Shown here piece by piece: positions 17,625 to 46,460 of a stretch of 62,597 nt of DNA. The number at the start of each line of letters is the position of its first letter. Positions within the stretch are counted from its first letter, which is position 1. The DNA is taken from contig SUWC01000008.1 of NCBI GenBank assembly GCA_015061665.1, positions 1 through 62,597 of the forward strand, written 5' to 3'. This DNA is from Lentisphaerota bacterium (GTDB lineage: Bacteria; Verrucomicrobiota; Kiritimatiellia; RFP12; UBA1067). The translations under genes and the position numbers were made by a program. The notes under the pieces were generated by a model. It did no database searches and was not told where the DNA came from. It saw nothing but the letters and a program-made list of their open reading frames with translations.

Positions 17625-20510
17625 CTACTCCGCGGCGGCCTTCACATGGACCGCCCCGTCTTCTTCGCGCGTCGCCATGTCTTCCAGCGCTCCGATCGCC
17701 GTCGCTTCGGCCTGGTTGTGGTAGATGTAGAGGACGCGTCCGCTATGGTTGGTTATATAGCCGCTTCTTATCACCGTCCCCGCGCCATATACCGTTCCCT
17801 GCGCGGTGTGGAGCGTCTCGTCAACCGTCGCTTCCGTCGTGAACGCGAGCGCCACGCCGCTGTCGACGAGCGCCTCGACTATCACCGCCGGCGTCTCGCT
17901 CGTATCCTCGGGGTCGTTGTAGCGGTTCACTCTCACGGTTGTTCCCTGCGGGACGTAGAGTGTCGTCGCGCCTATCTTTATGGTCGCCTCGCCCGTCACG
18001 TCGTAGCCGTTGTCGAGTTCCGTTATGCCGCCTCCGTTGTCGGGGTCCGCGGTGATGACGACGTCATCGTCGATTTCGACCGTCTCCTTGACGAGGCGCT
18101 GCGTAAATTGGGCGGTGTATTCCGCGTCGCCAAACACGTTGCTTACTTCAGGCGTCCATCCCGCAAACTCGTAGACATACGACGGGTCGGTCGATTCCTT
18201 TACCGGGTCTTCGCAGCTCGGCGTCGTATCGTAGGAAAGCCCCGTATCTGTTTTGATCACGCTGCCATCGTCCATCTTCCAAACGACTGTGTAAGTCTTC
18301 TCTGTTTTTTCCCAGACTGCGGTATAGACATAGGTCACGTTTTCTTGCGTGGCGACGATCTCCGGCGACCAGCCGGTGAAGACGTAGTTCGTCCTTTCGT
18401 CCGAATAATCGACGAGCGGCTCGTGCGAGGGCGTTTCGCCCGGCAGATGGTAGTCGATTTGCAGAAGTGTGCCGTCTTCATCGACCCATTTTACCGTCGC
18501 GAAGAGCTCTTCGCTGAAGAGAATCGGCGCCGTCTGCACCGTCGTGCCTAGCGTGTGCGCGAGCGTCCATGTGCCGGGCTTCGTCCCTTCCCAATCGATC
18601 GAGCCCTCGCTCGCGGCGCTCGCAATCGTCGAAACGGCGCCGTCGGGATCTTCGACTTCCACGCTCGCGCCTTCTTCCCATGTAACATCGAGAAGCTGGT
18701 TCCAGTCTGTTATGAGCCGCAGGTTCGCCGCGTTGTTCTTCACCGGCACCGTCTCCAGGTCGAGCGCCGTCGTCCGCCGCGCCGATGTGAACGCTTTGTA
18801 TGTGGCCTCTTCCGTCGCGCGGACGATTTCAGGCGTCCAATAGTAGAACTTGTATGTCGCGCCTGCGCTTTCTCTCACCACGCCCGCGTGCGACGGCATC
18901 TTTCCTTCCGCGACGTATGTCGTGTCGGCTACGGTTCCATCGTCGTAAAGCCATGTTATCTTCACCGAATTGGCCGGCGCGAATATCGCGGTGAACTCCG
19001 CGTCGGCCGCGGCCTCTCCTGTCGCGGGCGTCCATCCCGCGAATGAATACGCTTCGTCCGAACTGCCGTCTTTTTCAGGGTCGTTGCCGAGCCATGCGTT
19101 CGTGAGCCCCTCGTAAATGCGGTTTGTGCCAAGCGTCGTGCCGTCGTCGTTCTTCCACGTCGTCGTGTAAAGCTTTTCGTCGGCATAGAGGTCGGGCTCT
19201 TCGGGTATGATATATCTCGCTTTTTCGGTCGCCTTGGAGCCCGCCACGCTATGCACCAAGTTCCACGTTCCCGCGTGCGGCGGCACATACCCGCCATAGC
19301 CCTCCTCCAACGCCGCCTCGACGAGTAGCCGCGTTTCATCTCCACACGTCTCGCTCACGCTCGCGCCGGCCTTCCATGTCATGTCGATTAGCTGCGCGAA
19401 CGATGTAAGCGTATAGACCCTCGTGCCGTTCTCTTCTGTATAAACCGTCTCGAGGTCGAGCGCCGTCATCCGCCGCGTGCCGATTCTCGCCGTGTATGTC
19501 GCGTCGCCATTGGCCGCTTTCGGGAAGGGATACCACGACACGAAATAGTAGGACTGCGACCCCGACCCGGCCGGCACCGCCCCAGCGTGAGTCGGAACCT
19601 TTCCCGGCGCACATTGCGTCTTTTCGATCAGCGTCCCGTCGTATGCCAGCCACGTTATCTCGTATTGCGAAAGGTTGTAAACCGCCTTGTATGTGACATC
19701 TTCTTCACCAAGAACCGTTATCTCGGGCGTCCAGCCTGTGAACGTGTAGGCCGCGTCCTCCGTCGGCCCGTACTCCGGCGTGCCGTTCTTGTAGCGCGGC
19801 GTGGAGCCTTCGTAGTATTCTTCCGTCGCAAGAACGCTGTCGTCTATGTTGAGCCAGGTGACCGTGTGGAATTTCGCGGGGTCGTAGAGTTCCGAGCCGA
19901 TGATTATCCGCGCGAGTTTTGTCGCGCCGTCCGCCGCGGCATGGACGAGATTCCACGTCCCCGGCGATGGCGGGCTCCAGTATTCGGCGCTGTCCGCGGC
20001 GTTTTCGGCTATCGTCGCCTCCGCGCCGTCGGTCGATTCGGCCGTCACGCTAGCTCCCGCCTCGAAGTCGATCGGCAGGAACTGGTCGCGGTTTGTTATC
20101 GTCCAGACTTTCACGTCGCCGTCGGCCGTCGCTACCGTCTCTAGGTCGAGCAGCGCCGCGTTTGGATACGACACCCTCATCATAAACCGCGCTTTCTTCA
20201 CCGTCCCGTCCGCCGCCGTATGCGTGACTAGCCAGGGCCCGGCGCCTTCCGGCTTCCAGCTGCCCGGCAACGCCGTCGTTTCGCCGCCAACCGTCAATGT
20301 CACTTCCGCGCCGTTTTCAATGTCGAAGGTTATTATGTCGTCGGCCGATGTAATGGTATAATTCATCGTGTCGCCGGCGAGCCCTCCTGTCGTCTCGAGG
20401 TCCAATTTCCTGTTGAAATGGAACGCCGGGCCTACGGGAATATCCGCCGCGTTCGCCAGCATCGCCACTGCCGACGCCGCAATCACAAGAATATTCTTTT
20501 TCATTTCCAT
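17625..20510 (-). CDS. Exported InlB-like / 'LDLETV' repeat protein
   Basis: 961 aa from the ATG at 20510 (an in-frame ATG at 20504 is possible). The reading frame is open further upstream through the DGR template repeat, but the signal peptide (KKNILVIAASAVAMLANA) fixes the start. Four copies of an ~85-residue unit opening LDLET begin near residues 36, 121, 351 and 583, each with a GASV/GAEV turn and a GTW-L-H or PWLVTH block. Between them and after are InlB-type (Listeria-Bacteroides) repeats (TTWKNDDGTTLG ... FAGWTPE). The start overlaps the 3' end of the RT frame, coupling it to the DGR. Probably an adhesin-like surface protein; a possible partner or scaffold of the diversified protein. 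Confidence 0.8.
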   Translation of the reverse strand: MEMKKNILVIAASAVAMLANAADIPVGPAFHFNRKLDLETTGGLAGDTMNYTITSADDIITFDIENGAEVTLTVGGETTALPGSWKPEGAGPWLVTHTAADGTVKKARFMMRVSYPNAALLDLETVATADGDVKVWTITNRDQFLPIDFEAGASVTAESTDGAEATIAENAADSAEYWSPPSPGTWNLVHAAADGATKLARIIIGSELYDPAKFHTVTWLNIDDSVLATEEYYEGSTPRYKNGTPEYGPTEDAAYTFTGWTPEITVLGEEDVTYKAVYNLSQYEITWLAYDGTLIEKTQCAPGKVPTHAGAVPAGSGSQSYYFVSWYPFPKAANGDATYTARIGTRRMTALDLETVYTEENGTRVYTLTSFAQLIDMTWKAGASVSETCGDETRLLVEAALEEGYGGYVPPHAGTWNLVHSVAGSKATEKARYIIPEEPDLYADEKLYTTTWKNDDGTTLGTNRIYEGLTNAWLGNDPEKDGSSDEAYSFAGWTPATGEAAADAEFTAIFAPANSVKITWLYDDGTVADTTYVAEGKMPSHAGVVRESAGATYKFYYWTPEIVRATEEATYKAFTSARRTTALDLETVPVKNNAANLRLITDWNQLLDVTWEEGASVEVEDPDGAVSTIASAASEGSIDWEGTKPGTWTLAHTLGTTVQTAPILFSEELFATVKWVDEDGTLLQIDYHLPGETPSHEPLVDYSDERTNYVFTGWSPEIVATQENVTYVYTAVWEKTEKTYTVVWKMDDGSVIKTDTGLSYDTTPSCEDPVKESTDPSYVYEFAGWTPEVSNVFGDAEYTAQFTQRLVKETVEIDDDVVITADPDNGGGITELDNGYDVTGEATIKIGATTLYVPQGTTVRVNRYNDPEDTSETPAVIVEALVDSGVALAFTTEATVDETLHTAQGTVYGAGTVIRSGYITNHSGRVLYIYHNQAEATAIGALEDMATREEDGAVHVKAAAE

Positions 20511-21937
20511 GTTTCTCCTTTCAAATCTTTTCTGTTTATCCCTGTTTCTTCCGAAGAGTGCGCACAGCCGGGGCCTTGGGCGCAGCGCGAAACTTCCTCC
20601 GCCGCCGCGCTTACCGGACCCGGCGCGCCTTGTTGCATTTTCGTCTCCGCGGGTCCGCCCGCGAAGCACCGGACGTTCGGGATGGGATTCGTTCCTTTTG
20701 GCAGTATGGTCAGATTGGGAGCGAATGCTGGCAACGCGGAAGCCGATGTTCCAGTTGGAGTTGGACGGTCCGTTGTTGCGATTGCGCGAGCCTGAGCGGT
20801 TCCACGCGAGGTCATTGTTGGAGTTGGCGCTTCCGCCGCGGATGACGCGAGAGGCGCCGACGGAACAAAATCTCCCGATGCCCAAAGTTCCAGAAATTTT
20901 CCTCTCTCTTTCTTTGCGCGGCGTCTTTCTTCCGGTTCGCCGACATCCCGGTAAACATTCTTGAAGCCGTACCACCTGGCCGTTCCTTCCATCGACATCA
21001 AAACCTGCTGCACCTTTTCTTCGGCTATCGTTCCCGCGTAAAGCCCTTTTACGTACTTCCTTGCGCTGCGTCTCGTCCTAATCCAGCGAGAACGCGTCAT
21101 CCTCCATTCGTTCGGCCATATCCTGAGCCCCAGGAACGGCACTCCTTCCGATACGGGCGAGACGATCGTCGCCTTTTCCTTCAATTCCAGATTCAAATTC
21201 TCTTTCAAATACTCTTTCACTGAGTCGTGTATCCGCCAGGCTTCCGCCTTGTCGCGGCAAAATACGAGCATGTCGTCCATATACCGCAAATATCTCCTGC
21301 CCGTGCCAAGCCTATCGACTATGAAATGGTCCAGCCCGTCCAGATAGAGATTCGCGAACCACTGGCTCGTCAAATTGCCTATGGGCAGCGCAATCCCGGG
21401 CTTGTGCCGCGGTATCGGATGCAGCACTATTTCGCGATATAGAGAACGGACCTCCCTCTCCCTAAAACGCTTGTCGAGCATCTCGAGAAGTATTCCATGA
21501 TCGACGCTCTCGAAATAATGGCGGACGTCCATCTTCAGATAAAACCCCTGCATGAACTCTCTCGCCAGTTCCCTCGCCCTGAGCTGAGCCTTGTGCGACC
21601 CTTTTCCATCGCGGCAGGCATAGCTTTGGTCGATGAAGCTTTTTTCCATGAGCGGACCTATCACGTTGCAAAGCGCGTGATGGACGACTCTGTCTTCGAC
21701 CGGCACCGCCGATATCATTCTCGGCTTGGGCTCGTAAACCATGAACTGGTAATAGTCGCTTGCTCTCCACTTGCCCGCCTTCAACAGCCGGCGCGTGCGT
21801 TCGAGCCGCCCTTCCAGGTTTCTTGCATACTTCAGCGTCGGCGAATCCGTAGGATGATTGCGGCGAAACTTGTCCCAGGCCAGCAAGAGATTCTCGTGGC
21901 TTGTGATTTCGCTCCAAAGTCCGCCGTAGCTTTTCAT
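20501..21937 (-). CDS. DGR reverse transcriptase
   Basis: 478 aa as an open frame. The conserved RT spans about residues 1-355. Catalytic motifs are LKMDVRHYFESVDH (Asp137), the diagnostic DGR motif IGNLTSQ (residues 186-192, GxxxSQ in place of the group II intron form), and YMDDM (Asp221-222). The thumb ends around GTARWYGFKNVYRDV. The reading frame continues without a stop through the template repeat, which begins at about residue 359, to a TGA overlapping the next gene's start codons. Whether this ~120-residue tail is made as protein is unclear. The enzyme makes adenine-mutagenised cDNA from template RNA for transfer into the variable repeat. It follows the accessory gene by 23 bases. Confidence 0.95.
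   Translation of the reverse strand: MKSYGGLWSEITSHENLLLAWDKFRRNHPTDSPTLKYARNLEGRLERTRRLLKAGKWRASDYYQFMVYEPKPRMISAVPVEDRVVHHALCNVIGPLMEKSFIDQSYACRDGKGSHKAQLRARELAREFMQGFYLKMDVRHYFESVDHGILLEMLDKRFREREVRSLYREIVLHPIPRHKPGIALPIGNLTSQWFANLYLDGLDHFIVDRLGTGRRYLRYMDDMLVFCRDKAEAWRIHDSVKEYLKENLNLELKEKATIVSPVSEGVPFLGLRIWPNEWRMTRSRWIRTRRSARKYVKGLYAGTIAEEKVQQVLMSMEGTARWYGFKNVYRDVGEPEERRRAKKERGKFLELWASGDFVPSAPLASSAAEAPTPTMTSRGTAQARAIATTDRPTPTGTSASALPAFAPNLTILPKGTNPIPNVRCFAGGPAETKMQQGAPGPVSAAAEEVSRCAQGPGCAHSSEETGINRKDLKGETWK
20728..20863 (-). repeat. DGR template repeat (TR)
   Basis: 136 bp matching the variable repeat at a constant offset of 2001 bases. 122 positions are identical. All 14 differences fall on T in the plus strand, i.e. 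adenine in the TR coding strand: 20747, 20749, 20756, 20762, 20769, 20783, 20800, 20801, 20812, 20815, 20816, 20824, 20825 and 20832. The TR contains 28 such adenines, mostly in AAC/AAT codons, as expected for adenine-targeted diversification. Confidence 0.97.
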
Positions 21938-21960
21938 CCTTGTGCTTTCTCCTTTCCGGG

Positions 21961-22635
21961 TTACTGCAGCACCAGTATATCCTGTTGCGGCTCTCCGCCG
22001 TCTGCAGCTTCGGCTGTCGAGTCCGCGTCCGCCGCGGCCGCCGGCTTCGCCGTCTTCGCGACCTTCTTCGCCGCCTCCTCGATCTTCGCAGCCTCTGCGG
22101 GCTTGACGGGTTCGAGGTCTTTTATTATTTCAAGAACTTCCTTGCCGTAGTTCTTGCAAAACGTATCTCCCGCGCCGTATATCTCGTGCAATGCCGCGAG
22201 AGTCTTCGGCGCTTTCATCACAATCTCTACGAGCATCATGTTGCGCGCTATCGTGAACGCCCTGTAGCCCGTGCTCCGGGCTTTTTTGTTGCGCCAGTCC
22301 TTGAGCGCCAGATATGCAGTATGCGTCGCCGCGGGCATCTCTTTCTCAAGCTCGTCTTCTTTCACTTTCGACGCGTCCGTGCCGCCGCCGGCGCCGCCCT
22401 TTGAACGGGCGCCGCCGTCGGCCATTTTGAGCGTGAGAACAAGATGCGGCTGGCCGCCGTGCATGAAGAATTCCTGGTGGACGTCCAGGACGTCGCGCCC
22501 GTAGGTGACTTCTTTGAGTTGTTCTTCGCTGAAGCCCTTTTGCCATTCTTCATATCGCATTGTTATAACGCGTACTTCCATACTTTCACATTTGTTCGAG
22601 TACGATTTGATTTTGTACTTGAGCAGTGTTTCCAT
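21961..22635 (-). CDS. DGR accessory protein with HRDC domain
   Basis: 224 aa from the ATG at 22635; an ATG at 22581 is an alternative. The frame opens further upstream inside the variable repeat but is not expected to be used. Residues about 25-75 carry a conserved-looking N-domain (EEWQKGFSEEQLKEV, then HGGQPHLVLTLKM). A low-complexity GGA linker follows. Residues about 106-175 form an HRDC domain (LKDWRNKKARSTGY ... APKTLAALHEIYGAGDTFCKNYG), a nucleic-acid-binding fold of RecQ/RNase D tails. The tail is Ala/Lys rich. HRDC proteins are a known alternative to Avd as DGR accessory factors. It lies between the target gene and the RT. Confidence 0.85.
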   Translation of the reverse strand: METLLKYKIKSYSNKCESMEVRVITMRYEEWQKGFSEEQLKEVTYGRDVLDVHQEFFMHGGQPHLVLTLKMADGGARSKGGAGGGTDASKVKEDELEKEMPAATHTAYLALKDWRNKKARSTGYRAFTIARNMMLVEIVMKAPKTLAALHEIYGAGDTFCKNYGKEVLEIIKDLEPVKPAEAAKIEEAAKKVAKTAKPAAAADADSTAEAADGGEPQQDILVLQ

Positions 22636-22659
22636 CCGCCAATTTTTTTTTGCGCTCGC

Positions 22660-22689
22660 CTGCCTGGTAGCGCTGTCGCGCCCAGGCAG
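22660..22689 (-). promoter_or_regulatory. Hairpin downstream of the variable repeat
   Basis: Arms CTGCCTGG (22660-22667) and CCAGGCAG (22682-22689) enclose a GCGC/GCGC stem with a 4-base loop. It lies 26 bases beyond the target gene's stop codon. No U-tract follows in the transcript, so it is not a normal terminator. DGR targets commonly carry a tetraloop hairpin or cruciform at this location to assist homing. Confidence 0.7.
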
Positions 22690-22715
22690 TCTCGCGCCTT
22701 TGTCTGACCACCTGC

Positions 22716-23936
22716 CTAAGGAACGATCCTGGCAACGCGGAAGCCGAGGCTCCAGTCGGAGTCGGACGGGCCGTTGTTGCGATGGCGCGAGCCTGAGCGG
22801 GCCCACGCGAGGGCAACGTTGGAGCCGGCGCTCCCGCCGCGGATGACGCGAGAGGCGCCGACGGTCGTGGGCGACTGGGTCAGCGACATATCCGCCGCGT
22901 TGTTCTGCGTGTTGTTGTTCCAGGCCACATACGCGGTCGCGTCAAGGCACCACTCCCACACGTTGCCGTACATGTCGTAGAGTCCCCACTGGTTCGAGAG
23001 CTTCGTTCCGGCATTGGCCAAAGCGGAAGCCGACGTTCCCGTCTGGACGACGGCGTATTTCGAGAGATTCGCCTTCGTTTCGGAGGCGCCGCCCGTGCCG
23101 TAGAAGCGCCACCAGGTCGGGTCGCCTTCGGCGTGCGCGGCGATCTGCCACATCGATTCCGTGGGCAAGTCGCAATAGAACGTGCTGTCGCCGGTCGCAT
23201 TCTGCACAAGCGTATTCAGCTTGCCGAAGAACGAAGTCGCCGTCACCGCCGTGTCGGGCGCGTCCGTCCCGCGAATCGTCGAATAGGAAACCGTCCCCTG
23301 CGGCTTCATGTCGGTCGAAGTCGTGGAGGTTCCCATTATGCAGGCATATTGCGCGACCGTGCATTCGAAGAGCGCGATGTAGTAGTCCTTCGCCATCGTC
23401 GCCGTCGCAATGCCGTTGCCGCCCGACGCGGCCGTAGTAGTCCCTTCGGCCGAGTTGCCGATAAGCAGCGTGTAGTCGCCCGCCCCTACTCGGCGGAACA
23501 CCATCTTCTGCGTCTTGTATGCCGCGACGTTGAACTTGTTCGTCGCCTCGACGACGTCGCAGTTGTCGTATTCGACATCGCCCGTCTTGAGATCGACAAT
23601 CATCCAATCATAGTAAAGTATCGGCTCAAGGTCGATCGAAAGCGGCACGTCGCGCTCCGAAACACCGGCGGGGCATTCCCATGAATTGGTATATACGCCG
23701 TCGGCGCGGATGTTGCGCTTGAATATGACTTCGTCGGCGCCGTTCGTCGTAATCGTTCCCGTCGCCTTGTAGTGGGCGCCGTCAAGCCCGCTTACCGAAT
23801 AAACGACATCGACCTGATTGTTCCAGGGATATTGCTGACGCGCCTTTATGACGGCGACATCGACCGCGCAAGCGCAGAGTGGCGCTACTAGCGCCGCCAG
23901 CGCCGCCACCTTTTGTATTTGTTTTATTGATTTCAT
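22716..23936 (-). CDS. DGR target: secreted FGE/SUMF1-like variable protein
   Basis: 406 aa. The ATG at 23936 has AGGA upstream. A signal peptide runs to about ACA (residue 24); the cysteine context is not a good lipobox, so soluble or surface export is more likely than a lipoprotein. Residues about 25-125 form an Ig-like N-domain. Residues about 150-406 are a formylglycine-generating-enzyme/sulfatase-modifying-factor fold (FFGKLNTLVQN, LPTESMWQIAAHAEG, GLYDMYGNVWEWCLD), which contains a C-type-lectin core. The last 46 residues are the variable repeat. FGE-fold lectin domains are a common DGR target class, where VR residues shape a ligand pocket. Presumed binding protein with hypervariable specificity. 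Confidence 0.93.
   Translation of the reverse strand: MKSIKQIQKVAALAALVAPLCACAVDVAVIKARQQYPWNNQVDVVYSVSGLDGAHYKATGTITTNGADEVIFKRNIRADGVYTNSWECPAGVSERDVPLSIDLEPILYYDWMIVDLKTGDVEYDNCDVVEATNKFNVAAYKTQKMVFRRVGAGDYTLLIGNSAEGTTTAASGGNGIATATMAKDYYIALFECTVAQYACIMGTSTTSTDMKPQGTVSYSTIRGTDAPDTAVTATSFFGKLNTLVQNATGDSTFYCDLPTESMWQIAAHAEGDPTWWRFYGTGGASETKANLSKYAVVQTGTSASALANAGTKLSNQWGLYDMYGNVWEWCLDATAYVAWNNNTQNNAADMSLTQSPTTVGASRVIRGGSAGSNVALAWARSGSRHRNNGPSDSDWSLGFRVARIVP
22729..22864 (-). repeat. DGR variable repeat (VR) with IMH
   Basis: Encodes residues 358-403 of the target protein. Relative to TR, 9 residues differ (371, 374, 375, 379, 385, 392, 394, 396, 397), mostly Asn in the template. On the coding strand the changes are A to G (8), A to C (5) and A to T (1). 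The invariant GC-rich 3' end (22729-22747) is the likely initiation-of-mutagenic-homology site. The first non-adenine mismatch (20727 versus 22728) marks its border. Confidence 0.97.
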
Positions 23937-23949
23937 CGTGTCTTTCCTT

Positions 23950-24315
23950 TCAGTGTGTTAGTGAAAGCGAATGTAAAGTGAATGACTGGGGGTGATGGGA
24001 GGGCCGACCTCCGTGTCGGCCAAAACTCCCTGCTTTGCAAAAACAAAAACACCTGCCGCAAAAGGACAAATCCTTGCAGCAGATGCAGTATTTCAGCGTC
24101 GATTTAACACGCGCTAATAGCGCGTAAAACAGCCTTTCTAGCGATTTGCGATTAGATCGCCCCCCCCCCCCTGCTAAAACCGCAAACGCGCTGGAAGCGC
24201 TGTAAACAGCGTTCCTGGCGTTATTTTTCGCGTCGCTCGAAAGCGGCATTTGCACCCTCGTCGAAAGGGAGAATGGCGCGCCATCGGGAAGCAATTTGGA
24301 GGGTTTATTATTCAT
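23950..24315 (-). CDS. Hypothetical leader ORF with poly-G tract
   Basis: A possible 121-codon ORF starting about 18 bases after the predicted transcription start of the DGR promoter. It crosses a run of twelve G on the coding strand, so slippage would change its C-terminal half. The first half (MNNKPSKLLPDGAPFSLSTR) is not low-complexity. The second half is cysteine-rich and implausible, and overlaps a REP-like palindrome. It has no good ribosome-binding site and no recognised family. It may be a leader peptide or a structured untranslated region rather than a gene. Confidence 0.25.
   Translation of the reverse strand: MNNKPSKLLPDGAPFSLSTRVQMPLSSDAKNNARNAVYSASSAFAVLAGGGGRSNRKSLERLFYALLARVKSTLKYCICCKDLSFCGRCFCFCKAGSFGRHGGRPSHHPQSFTLHSLSLTH
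23997..24021. repeat. REP-like palindrome, copy 1
   Basis: GGCCGAC and GTCGGCC arms separated by six bases and preceded by GGGAG. A second copy at 55769-55793 differs by a single base in the loop. It sits in the DGR leader. Confidence 0.7.
24160..24171. repeat. 12-C homopolymer
   Basis: Twelve consecutive C on the plus strand, G on the transcribed strand. It lies between the DGR promoter and the target gene. Such tracts are prone to slipped-strand length change. Confidence 0.8.
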
Positions 24316-24339
24316 GTCTAGGTCTCTAAAAGCAAGAAG

Positions 24340-24368
24340 ATTATATCATATCATTCTCCCGCCGTCAA
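24340..24368 (-). promoter_or_regulatory. Promoter of the DGR operon
   Basis: On the minus strand: -35 TTGACG (24368-24363), exactly 17-bp spacer, extended -10 TATGATATAAT with TATAAT at 24345-24340. This is the best sigma70-type match in the window. Predicted start is near 24333, about 400 bases before the target gene. Confidence 0.8.
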
Positions 24369-24411: not shown

Positions 24412-26296
24412 TCCAGAAGTAAACTTGATTTTAGTGATAGTTTACCCCTTGTAAAGATTGGCTGTTGTTGAGGGAAGGATGATTCCTCCCTCTCCCCTCC
24501 CCGGGGAGGGGACCCAAGTTTACTTTCGGACAACCGAGAAATTCGGCATACTATGCCCATCCCGACGAAGGGTCGCGGGCGGGTGTCCGCAACCCGACGA
24601 CGGTCAAACGAAAAGAAAGGCAAACGACAATGCAACACATGCAACTGGAAAACAGGCAGCGGCTCGGGTTCCTCGCGAGTCTCGGATGGACGATGAGGAG
24701 GATCGCCGAAGACATGGGCTGGAGCGCCCAGACCATCGCCAACGAGCTGCTCAACCGCAGGGTGGACAGCGACAAGCGCCACGGATGCTCGAACCGTCTC
24801 TGCGCTCACTACGAGGAATGCAGGCTCGAGTCCTACACCGCGACGGGCAAGGGCCTGCGCAAGAACCAGACGAAGTGCTTCGAGACGTGCCCGGGCTTCC
24901 GGGAGGCGTCCTGCCACCGCCTCGCCAGGCCTCCTTTCGTCTGCAACGGGTGCGAGAAGGAGCACAACTGCCCGATGCTCAAGAAGTTCTACATCCCCGA
25001 GGCCGCGCAGGCCAACTACGAGGGGACGCTGCGGAACTCCCGCACCGGCATCCACCCGGACGAGAAGAAGGTCAAGGCGATGAACGACGTCATCTCCCCC
25101 GCGCTCAAGAGGGGACAGTCCGCCACCGCCGTGGTGCGCGCCAACCCCGAGACTTTCAAGGGGGTGGCGAGAAGCACGCTGTACGGCTACATCAGGGACG
25201 GGCTCTTCACCGCCAAGGGATGCGACATGCCATTTGCGGGGAGGAGCAGGAAGCCGCACAAGAAGCCGGAGACCAGGACGACGGCAAAATGCCGCGTCGG
25301 GCGCACCATCCGCGAGATGTGGGAGTGGCTCAAGCAGCACGCGGGCGTCGTCCCGTGCGAGCTCGACACGGTCATAGGCTCGATCAGCGGGAAGGTCCTC
25401 TTCACGATGGTCTTCCCCGACACCGGCCTCGCGCTCGCCTTCCTCCGCGACGAGAAGACCGCACAGACCTGCACGAGGATATTCAACATGCTCTGGCGCG
25501 TCGCGGGGCCCGCGCTCTTCGTGAGGCTCTTCCGCGCGATCCTGACCGACAACGGCCCGGAGTTCTCCGAGCCGGAGATGGTCGAGAAATACCGCCCGGA
25601 TCCCGAACACAACCCGACGAAGCTGCTGCCGCGCGGCGTAAACGTCTGGTTCTGCGACCCGTACTGCTCGTCGCAGAAGCCGCACATCGAGCGCTTCCAC
25701 AACGAGCTCAGGCGCATCCTCCAGAAGGGAACGAGCTTCGACCCGCTCACGCAGGAGCAGATATGCCTCGCGCTCTCGCACCTCAACAGCTACCCGCGCG
25801 AATCGCTCGGCGGAAGGACGCCCTACGACGTCTTCGTCGAGAAGCACGGCGCGGAGGGCAGGGCGTTCCTCGACGCGCTCGGCATCGTCCGCATCCCGGC
25901 GAACCAGGTCACGCTCCACCCGTTCCTCCTCGGGCAGAAGTACCAGCGGGCGGCTGACAGGGCCATACTGAAGAAGAACGGAGTCATCGCGAAGAAGCCG
26001 GAATCCGACAAGTAAAAACGGCTCCCTTTCGAGAGCCGAGAGCAACCCGACGCCGTCGAGAATCCGAAAAATCCACCTCGGCCCGGGATGCGATAGCATT
26101 ATACCAAAATCCGGGACGCCCGGGGCCGGAAACGCGGCAACCCTCCAAATTTATGCAACTTTCGTCTTGAGCCACCACGCAACATCTACAAAACAAGGTG
26201 CAGAATAACAGACTTCGGTTTTCGGGGAAATGCCGATCCCCGCAGTTCTGCAATCAAACTTCGGATTTACTTCTGGAATCCAAGTTTACTTCTGGA
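24412..26296 (+). mobile_element. IS30-family insertion sequence
   Basis: Terminal inverted repeats TCCAGAAGTAAACTTG (24412-24427) and its complement at 26281-26296, 16 bp perfect, bound a single transposase gene. Extra copies of the TTTACTTCTGGA or TTTACTTTCGGA core occur internally near 24515-24528 and 26266-26277, as subterminal binding sites. A 14-bp direct repeat CCCAATTTTACTTT flanks it (24391-24404 and 26304-26317). That is longer than the 2-3 bp duplication usual for IS30, so the exact borders are uncertain. Confidence 0.75.
24630..26015 (+). CDS. IS30-family transposase
   Basis: 461 aa. The N-terminal helix-turn-helix (LGWTMRRIAEDMGWSAQTIA) is followed by a cysteine-rich segment (CSNRLCAHYEEC ... 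CPGFREASC ... CNGCEKEHNC), probably zinc-binding. The DDE catalytic residues are in ELDTVIG, ILTDNGPEF and PHIERFHNELRR (D, D, E at IS30 spacing). No frameshift or internal stop is seen, so it may be active. Gene orientation opposes the adjacent DGR operon. Its left end lies only 44 bp from the DGR promoter's -35 box. Confidence 0.9.
   Translation: MQHMQLENRQRLGFLASLGWTMRRIAEDMGWSAQTIANELLNRRVDSDKRHGCSNRLCAHYEECRLESYTATGKGLRKNQTKCFETCPGFREASCHRLARPPFVCNGCEKEHNCPMLKKFYIPEAAQANYEGTLRNSRTGIHPDEKKVKAMNDVISPALKRGQSATAVVRANPETFKGVARSTLYGYIRDGLFTAKGCDMPFAGRSRKPHKKPETRTTAKCRVGRTIREMWEWLKQHAGVVPCELDTVIGSISGKVLFTMVFPDTGLALAFLRDEKTAQTCTRIFNMLWRVAGPALFVRLFRAILTDNGPEFSEPEMVEKYRPDPEHNPTKLLPRGVNVWFCDPYCSSQKPHIERFHNELRRILQKGTSFDPLTQEQICLALSHLNSYPRESLGGRTPYDVFVEKHGAEGRAFLDALGIVRIPANQVTLHPFLLGQKYQRAADRAILKKNGVIAKKPESDK

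Positions 26297-43356: not shown

Positions 43357-46460
<3,104 letters not shown>

Follow-up and report, generated by a model that had tools for sequence, protein, structure and literature searches.

The retroelement and its setting

The window, by which we mean the whole stretch of 62,597 nucleotides analysed here (contig SUWC01000008.1 of the Lentisphaerota bacterium assembly GCA_015061665.1), contains a complete diversity-generating retroelement (DGR). Its parts lie on the minus strand in the order target gene (22716-23936), HRDC protein (21961-22581) and reverse transcriptase (RT) open frame (20501-21937), the last of which contains the template repeat (TR, 20728-20863) in its 3' part. A first-pass annotation, made from the letters of the DNA, had called a complete DGR here, and the TR/VR pair, DGR-type RT, HRDC accessory and FGE-type target that this entails are all present. 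The element is real, and its extent, which had been placed at 20501..24368, is corrected to about 20608 to 23936; position 20501 is where the RT open frame ends, and upstream DNA occupies 23937-24368. While the parts had been correctly described, two aspects had gone unmentioned, namely the position of the TR inside the RT open frame and a conserved hairpin that trails it. The features are as follows:

22716..23936, minus strand: target gene, 406 aa, with an FGE-sulfatase/C-type-lectin domain at residues 160-403 (PF03781, E 1.1e-20)
22729-22864, minus strand: variable repeat (VR), 136 bp, near the C-terminus of the target
22660..22689, minus strand: candidate stem-loop 40 nt past the VR, with an 8-bp perfect stem and a 14-nt loop
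21961..22581, minus strand: HRDC-domain accessory, 206 aa, start codon picked by eye (PF00570, E 3.2e-14, scanned from 22563)
20501..21937, minus strand: RT open frame, 478 aa (PF00078, RVT_1; phrog_1423 over residues 1-346; 8ub7 over residues 4-330)
20728-20863, minus strand: TR, 136 bp, wholly within the RT open frame and read there one base off the target's frame
20608..20686, minus strand: conserved post-TR RNA element (CCCAT ... hairpin ... ACGAA-ATGC ... GTA), scoring 62.7 bits with the covariance model R1
20645..20666, minus strand: covarying hairpin within this element, with a 9-bp stem and a 4-nt loop in the window

Judged by its parts, this is an ordinary chromosomal DGR of the Treponema denticola type. 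A viral origin was considered and rejected: the RT patterns matched no viral contig, and the SecA and GyrB genes of the window indicate a chromosome. The RT protein is matched by 140 phage records, all of them under 60% identity. The genome examined (3.44 Mb in 177 contigs, 92% complete) is that of a probable gut bacterium, and among named relatives a Kiritimatiellae MAG from roe deer omasum (L060/L061) stands closest. Adjoining the DGR on the opposite strand is an IS30-family transposase gene (24630-26015), and a run of 12 C residues (24160-24171), which could be phase-variable or a weakness of the assembly, lies about 225 bases upstream of the start of the target gene.

Template and variable repeats

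The TR and VR are offset by 2001 bases and differ at 14 of their 136 positions, all of them TR adenines (8 A>G, 5 A>C and 1 A>T); re-counting returned the very figures of the first-pass annotation. Put differently, 14 of the 28 adenines of the TR are changed in the VR as against none of its 108 other bases, and the chance of all 14 changes falling on A is 9e-12. Twelve of the mismatches alter nine target residues (371, 374, 375, 379, 385, 392, 394, 396 and 397), the same number as originally reported, and the other two are synonymous (residues 368 and 389). Because the repeats show no mismatch outside the adenines, a recent homing event is indicated, and the element was likely active in the recent past.

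A search of the genome with the TR region recovered one full-length VR, the seven matches other than the TR and VR being 16-37 bp long. A stretch of the target gene ahead of the VR (23019-23047) resembles the TR at 86% over about 29 nt, and this third, partial copy is taken as chance. In the IMH/IMH* comparison the sequence diverges directly past both repeats, and the window has a stem-loop after the VR (22660..22689), a possible counterpart of the stem-loop found 3' of the IMH in BPP-1. The length of its stem was reached by none of 60 mononucleotide shuffles; when such a structure was sought in 48 loci, a stem at p 0.05 or less was seen in 7, and conservation of the post-VR stem-loop is thus unsupported.

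Target, accessory and reverse transcriptase

The best PDB match of the target is T. denticola TvpA (2y3c), with an E of 7e-6 for the protein alone and 9e-73 with the family profile. The SUMF1/FGE-like domain claimed for it is borne out by PF03781, and it is on this sequence match that the assignment rests, the AlphaFold model being unusable (pLDDT 29.6). Secretion, the other half of that claim, and surface display are suggested by a putative N-terminal signal peptide judged by eye. The HRDC protein does lie between target and RT as had been proposed, and HRDC was the sole domain found in it by a Pfam scan, which did not find bAvd, the BPP-1-type accessory.

The RT proper extends to about residue 330-346 (near 20900), beyond which its frame continues across the TR and the RNA element. 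Both of the motifs claimed for it were located, IGNLTSQ, which fits (I/V/L)GxxxSQ, and YMDD. It matches RVT_1 (E 2e-17, the one match of this profile in the genome) and PHROG 1423 (E 1e-101), and its top PDB sequence match is the BPP-1 DGR RT 8ub7 over residues 4-330 (E 8.5e-53). The same structure is the best fold match of the predicted structure of a relative's RT (L061; E 3e-21, TM 0.80 by target length). The nearest RT found in the family search is 60% identical. In a midpoint-rooted tree of 73 rows, in which DGR candidates with stops or under 240 aa were omitted and the comparison was with intron-like RTs, not retrons, the set including the window and BPP-1 is split with support of 100/100 from seven of the eight intron-like RTs, the eighth (L034) falling inside it on a long branch. 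The phylogenetic check suggested in the first-pass annotation hence places the window RT with the BPP-1 bRT, apart from those seven.

These parts allow a comparison with the known systems. In the published description of the T. denticola DGR, an HRDC accessory is found beside the RT, its gene lying between the TR and the RT and overlapping the RT start, and the targets are FGE-sulfatase/C-type-lectin proteins (PMC4891356). The window shares the HRDC accessory and the FGE target, with TvpA as the target's best PDB match; it differs, as far as that description and TvpA permit comparison, in that its TR is 3' of the RT and inside the RT frame. With the BPP-1 DGR it has in common an RT with the SQ motif and YMDD, the adenine pattern of TR/VR mutagenesis and a structured RNA past the TR, as described for BPP-1 in the available account (PMC12875486). 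In contrast, the BPP-1 element is phage-borne, uses Avd rather than HRDC, has its TR upstream of the RT and has an RNA without a match to R1. In layout the window matches group 3 of the DiGReF survey (PMC3521204), whose TRs overlap the RT open frame at its 3' end. In the portion of that account available to us, the RNAs of RT and TR are supposed to be made separately, the arrangement is treated as irrelevant, and conservation of the frame does not figure.

Relatives in the class and beyond

An RT search of the class with an 18-row RT alignment matched 40 of 345 genomes at E below 1e-58. For TR/VR pairs we read 77 stretches, the window and 76 others, two of which are records identical to two others. 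We tabulated 48 loci with the TR 3' of the RT; left out of this tabulation by name were L058, L060, L061, L067, L069, L076, L095, L098-L101 and L116, and a further 17 stretches outside it had no pair on the strand of the RT. Across the 48 loci the VR differs from the TR at 895 of 1583 adenines and at 44 of 4631 other bases, a ratio biased upward by the requirement that 80% or more of a pair's mismatches be at A. The FGE domain is present in 46 of the 48 targets. HRDC was found in 28 and bAvd in 5 of 35 scanned accessories, which comprise that of the window and 34 of the 37 open frames found by script (L056, L080 and L111 were dropped as short).

L060 and L061, near-identical contigs of one MAG, both start just upstream of the accessory gene and are without a VR, and hence carry no information on strain variation. 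Six loci of other members of the phylum (L085, L086, L087, L090, L091 and L093) have a single TR, near the RT, that pairs with two or more VRs. A few targets of relatives (A6 members) also match protein kinase, caspase, NACHT or KAP NTPase domains, and in this they resemble the conflict systems proposed in the accessible part of PMC10907252. L134, in a 12-kb stretch of G361 in which no RT was found, has a post-TR element and a degenerate TR; L136, in G054, is a DGR remnant in which no RT or TR was seen and the post-TR element directly follows a cut HRDC-like gene.

A conserved hairpin past the template

The post-TR element was modelled from 11 aligned loci, the window's own copy belonging to this training set of R1. 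In this alignment 87 of the 88 hairpin cells are paired, and six of the eight pairs show change on both sides, with slid-structure controls pairing 36-47% of cells. The covariation score was reached in none of 500 shuffles and the count of two-sided pairs in one of 500; the number of further pair types was not above shuffles (289 of 500 were as high), and folding of the window element is no more stable than that of its shuffles (z +1.05). Where measured in eight loci of the window's RT clade, the stem is 6-9 bp long and starts 33-110 nt past the TR.

Run over 71 sources, R1 gave 18 matches outside its training places at E values up to 10. Fourteen of these are in sources with a located TR, and of the 14, 12 begin, by subtraction of coordinates, 18-73 nt downstream of the TR and on the same strand; the matches off this position are L079 and one at 43947 in the window. 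Outside the training places, E below 0.001 was attained only in L107, L113 and L081. The window element is the only match in its own genome at E up to 1, and in the class, 15 of 345 genomes yielded a match at an E of 0.001 or less. As for known RNA families, two Rfam matches were seen at E up to 1, both far below the cut-offs, and kinship with the BPP-1 RNA was likewise dropped, since the best score of R1 there is 2.2 bits and amounts to no match. We also considered, and gave up, a conserved peptide in the RT tail: the likeness past the TR is nucleic-acid conservation, with the same DNA motif read in different frames. In BPP-1, the structured trailing RNA recruits RT-Avd and primes cDNA (PMC12875486, PMC8867640, as described in the text available), and by analogy the hairpin described here likely plays a comparable role.

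Reading frame through the template

The RT clade of the window is a set of ten rows in the tree (support 100/99), to which L049 and L135 were added by similarity, giving 12 loci; in four of them (L061, L049, L073 and L135) the TR was recognised by similarity, with no VR pair found. Two kinds of spacing were measured, one separating the RT motif W/Y-F/Y-GF from the TR codon run RGG, the other the TR motif GFR from the CAT of the RNA element. The former spacings are 134 (window), 135, 219, 111, 129, 93, 75, 101, 102, 201, 81 and 84 nt, 12 different lengths within 75-219 nt, and 10 of the 12 keep the RT in the target's frame (0 mod 3). The latter take eight distinct lengths within 42-96 nt and are 0 mod 3 in all 12. 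If the fewest possible length changes are reckoned, multiples of three account for 9 of 11 between RT and TR (P 0.0014) and for 7 of 7 between GFR and CAT (P 0.0005). These values are to be read with the knowledge that the test was framed after the data had been seen, the anchors were chosen by the analyst and the loci share ancestry. L135, which was reached by R1 after the frame pattern had been noted, fits both spacings.

Of 40 tabulated loci outside the clade, 7 have RT and target in the same frame (Fisher P 6e-5 against the 10 of 12 within it). The target frame there was equated with the longest open frame, which in five of these loci contains a stop within the repeat, and in L082, L087 and L102 the RT is interrupted. 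Mostly the RT of loci outside the clade stops before the TR, and where it does read through, it is in the target's frame in 2 of 14. A second count, for which 41 loci were tried, gave 28 measurable spacings, four of them in frame. In the two loci nearest to the clade (L081 and L107), the RT stops before the TR, and the RGG-to-CAT spacings of 134 and 128 are both 2 mod 3.

From the end of the TR to the GTA of the element, the target frame is stop-free in all 12 clade loci, and the other two frames hold stops in 3 and 6 of the 12. Past the GTA, the target frame comes to a stop in all 12, at shared places in some: 14 nt beyond it in L046, L049 and L135, and 59 nt beyond it in L073 and L103. The relic L134, excluded from these counts, has a target-frame stop inside the RNA element. 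In the window itself, one open frame (17625-20975) links the TR in the target frame to a downstream secreted-looking protein with its own ATG near 20513, probably by chance because of the GC content.

Two loci break the RT-TR spacing, and in both cases a close relative has a single base more: 134 nt in the window against 135 in L040, and 101 in L046 against 102. The RT of the window reads the TR in another, still open frame, which runs on to 20501; in L046 the RT meets a stop within the TR. The one-base difference could come from a real slip, from programmed frameshifting or from a sequencing error.

As to constraint on the encoded protein, changes by codon position in four pairs of loci number 49/42/71 in the RT-TR linker, a weak bias, and 12/17/22 in the spacer, where a bias is not clear; from CAT to the stop, three pairs show none (11/15/14, 1/2/2 and 21/25/28). 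The linker and tail of the RT are poorly conserved in sequence among the clade loci, and the tail is predicted to be disordered (from an alignment of seven).

Alternative explanations and a proposed mechanism

The spacing pattern suggests selection for translating the template RNA. The explanation we favour, in which we have rather more belief than doubt, joins a T. denticola-type DGR to a clade whose template RNA is the translated 3' end of the RT coding region. Our confidence in it is slightly lowered by the four clade TRs that were recognised by similarity and by the lack of codon bias past the CAT. The more specific proposal, to which we lean by a slight degree, is that this Kiritimatiellae DGR clade is under selection to carry RT translation across the TR, in phase with the target, and across the hairpin as well, so that one RNA would be both message and template and most of the RTs would be tailed with an unmutated copy of the variable region.

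A simpler account, possible though to our minds rather unlikely, is that this is an ordinary T. denticola-type DGR and nothing more: the RT has no stop before the TR, the open frame comes of GC-rich DNA, and the template RNA is independent of RT translation. The overlap of TR and RT frame already has its place in group 3 of DiGReF, where, in the text available, it is argued to be irrelevant (PMC3521204), and the frame has been lost in the window and L046. Openness, too, says little: of the 14 tabulated loci in the window's family, 13 have an RT frame open across the entire TR where chance would give 10, which amounts to just P 0.03, and we discarded this as sole evidence for being weak. What tells against the simpler account is the spacing, which stays in frame in the clade (10 of 12 and 12 of 12, against 7 of 40 elsewhere) despite large changes in length.

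The kept frame might instead reflect a need for the TR-encoded tail as a protein, an unmutated copy of the variable region that could, for example, hold the complex or bind a partner; we consider this improbable. The frame that is kept is indeed that of the target, and a VR-like peptide stands at the end of the RT in 9 of 11 clade loci, with L135 providing a tenth. However, the target frame is also the one least likely to hold stops, the linker and tail have the poor conservation and predicted disorder noted above, and the BPP-1 bRT, at 328 aa with its TR upstream, is without such a tail. Since the frame is kept and little of the sequence is, a need for translation seems to fit better than a need for a particular tail. 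There is also little likelihood that the element is a degenerate, stopped DGR with the frame slip of its RT a sign of decay, for although its spacing is one base under that of its nearest relative L040 and some relatives have decayed (the L134 and L136 stretches yielded no RT), the RT domain is uninterrupted, the VR has 14 adenine changes with zero background changes, and the slip could be a sequencing error in the assembly.

Following established DGR biology, the RT would copy the template RNA, consisting of the TR and the trailing hairpin region, making errors at adenines as it does so, and the mutated cDNA would replace the VR, thereby diversifying the ligand-binding surface of the target, probably outside the cell. 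Comparison of the loci suggests that, in the window's RT clade, the RT coding region supplies this template RNA at its 3' end: translation of the RT would run across the TR in the target's frame and then across the hairpin element, and would stop only beyond it. This is likely because a single mRNA acts both as the message for the RT and as the template. Ribosomes would then have to cross the template free of stops, which might shield it from Rho termination or decay, or deliver the RT in cis; a second possibility is that the TR-encoded tail of the RT is itself functional. The copy in the window would have slipped from the target frame, and yet it still reads through.

A template kept as the translated end of an RT gene would be unusual. 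The template RNA is treated as separate from the RT message in the accessible text of PMC12875486, PMC8867640 and PMC3521204, and we found no report of a conserved frame through a TR in the DGR literature searched, which included the available parts of PMC6642488, PMC8144416 and PMC10907252, much of the subscription literature lying outside this search. If this lineage does keep its template translated, then translation, the binding of the RT in cis and the priming of cDNA may be coupled. The hairpin model offers a handle for locating the template RNA, including in remnants without a detected RT such as L134 and L136. For the host, the target protein, which is probably surface-exposed, is marked out as a likely fast-changing recognition molecule.
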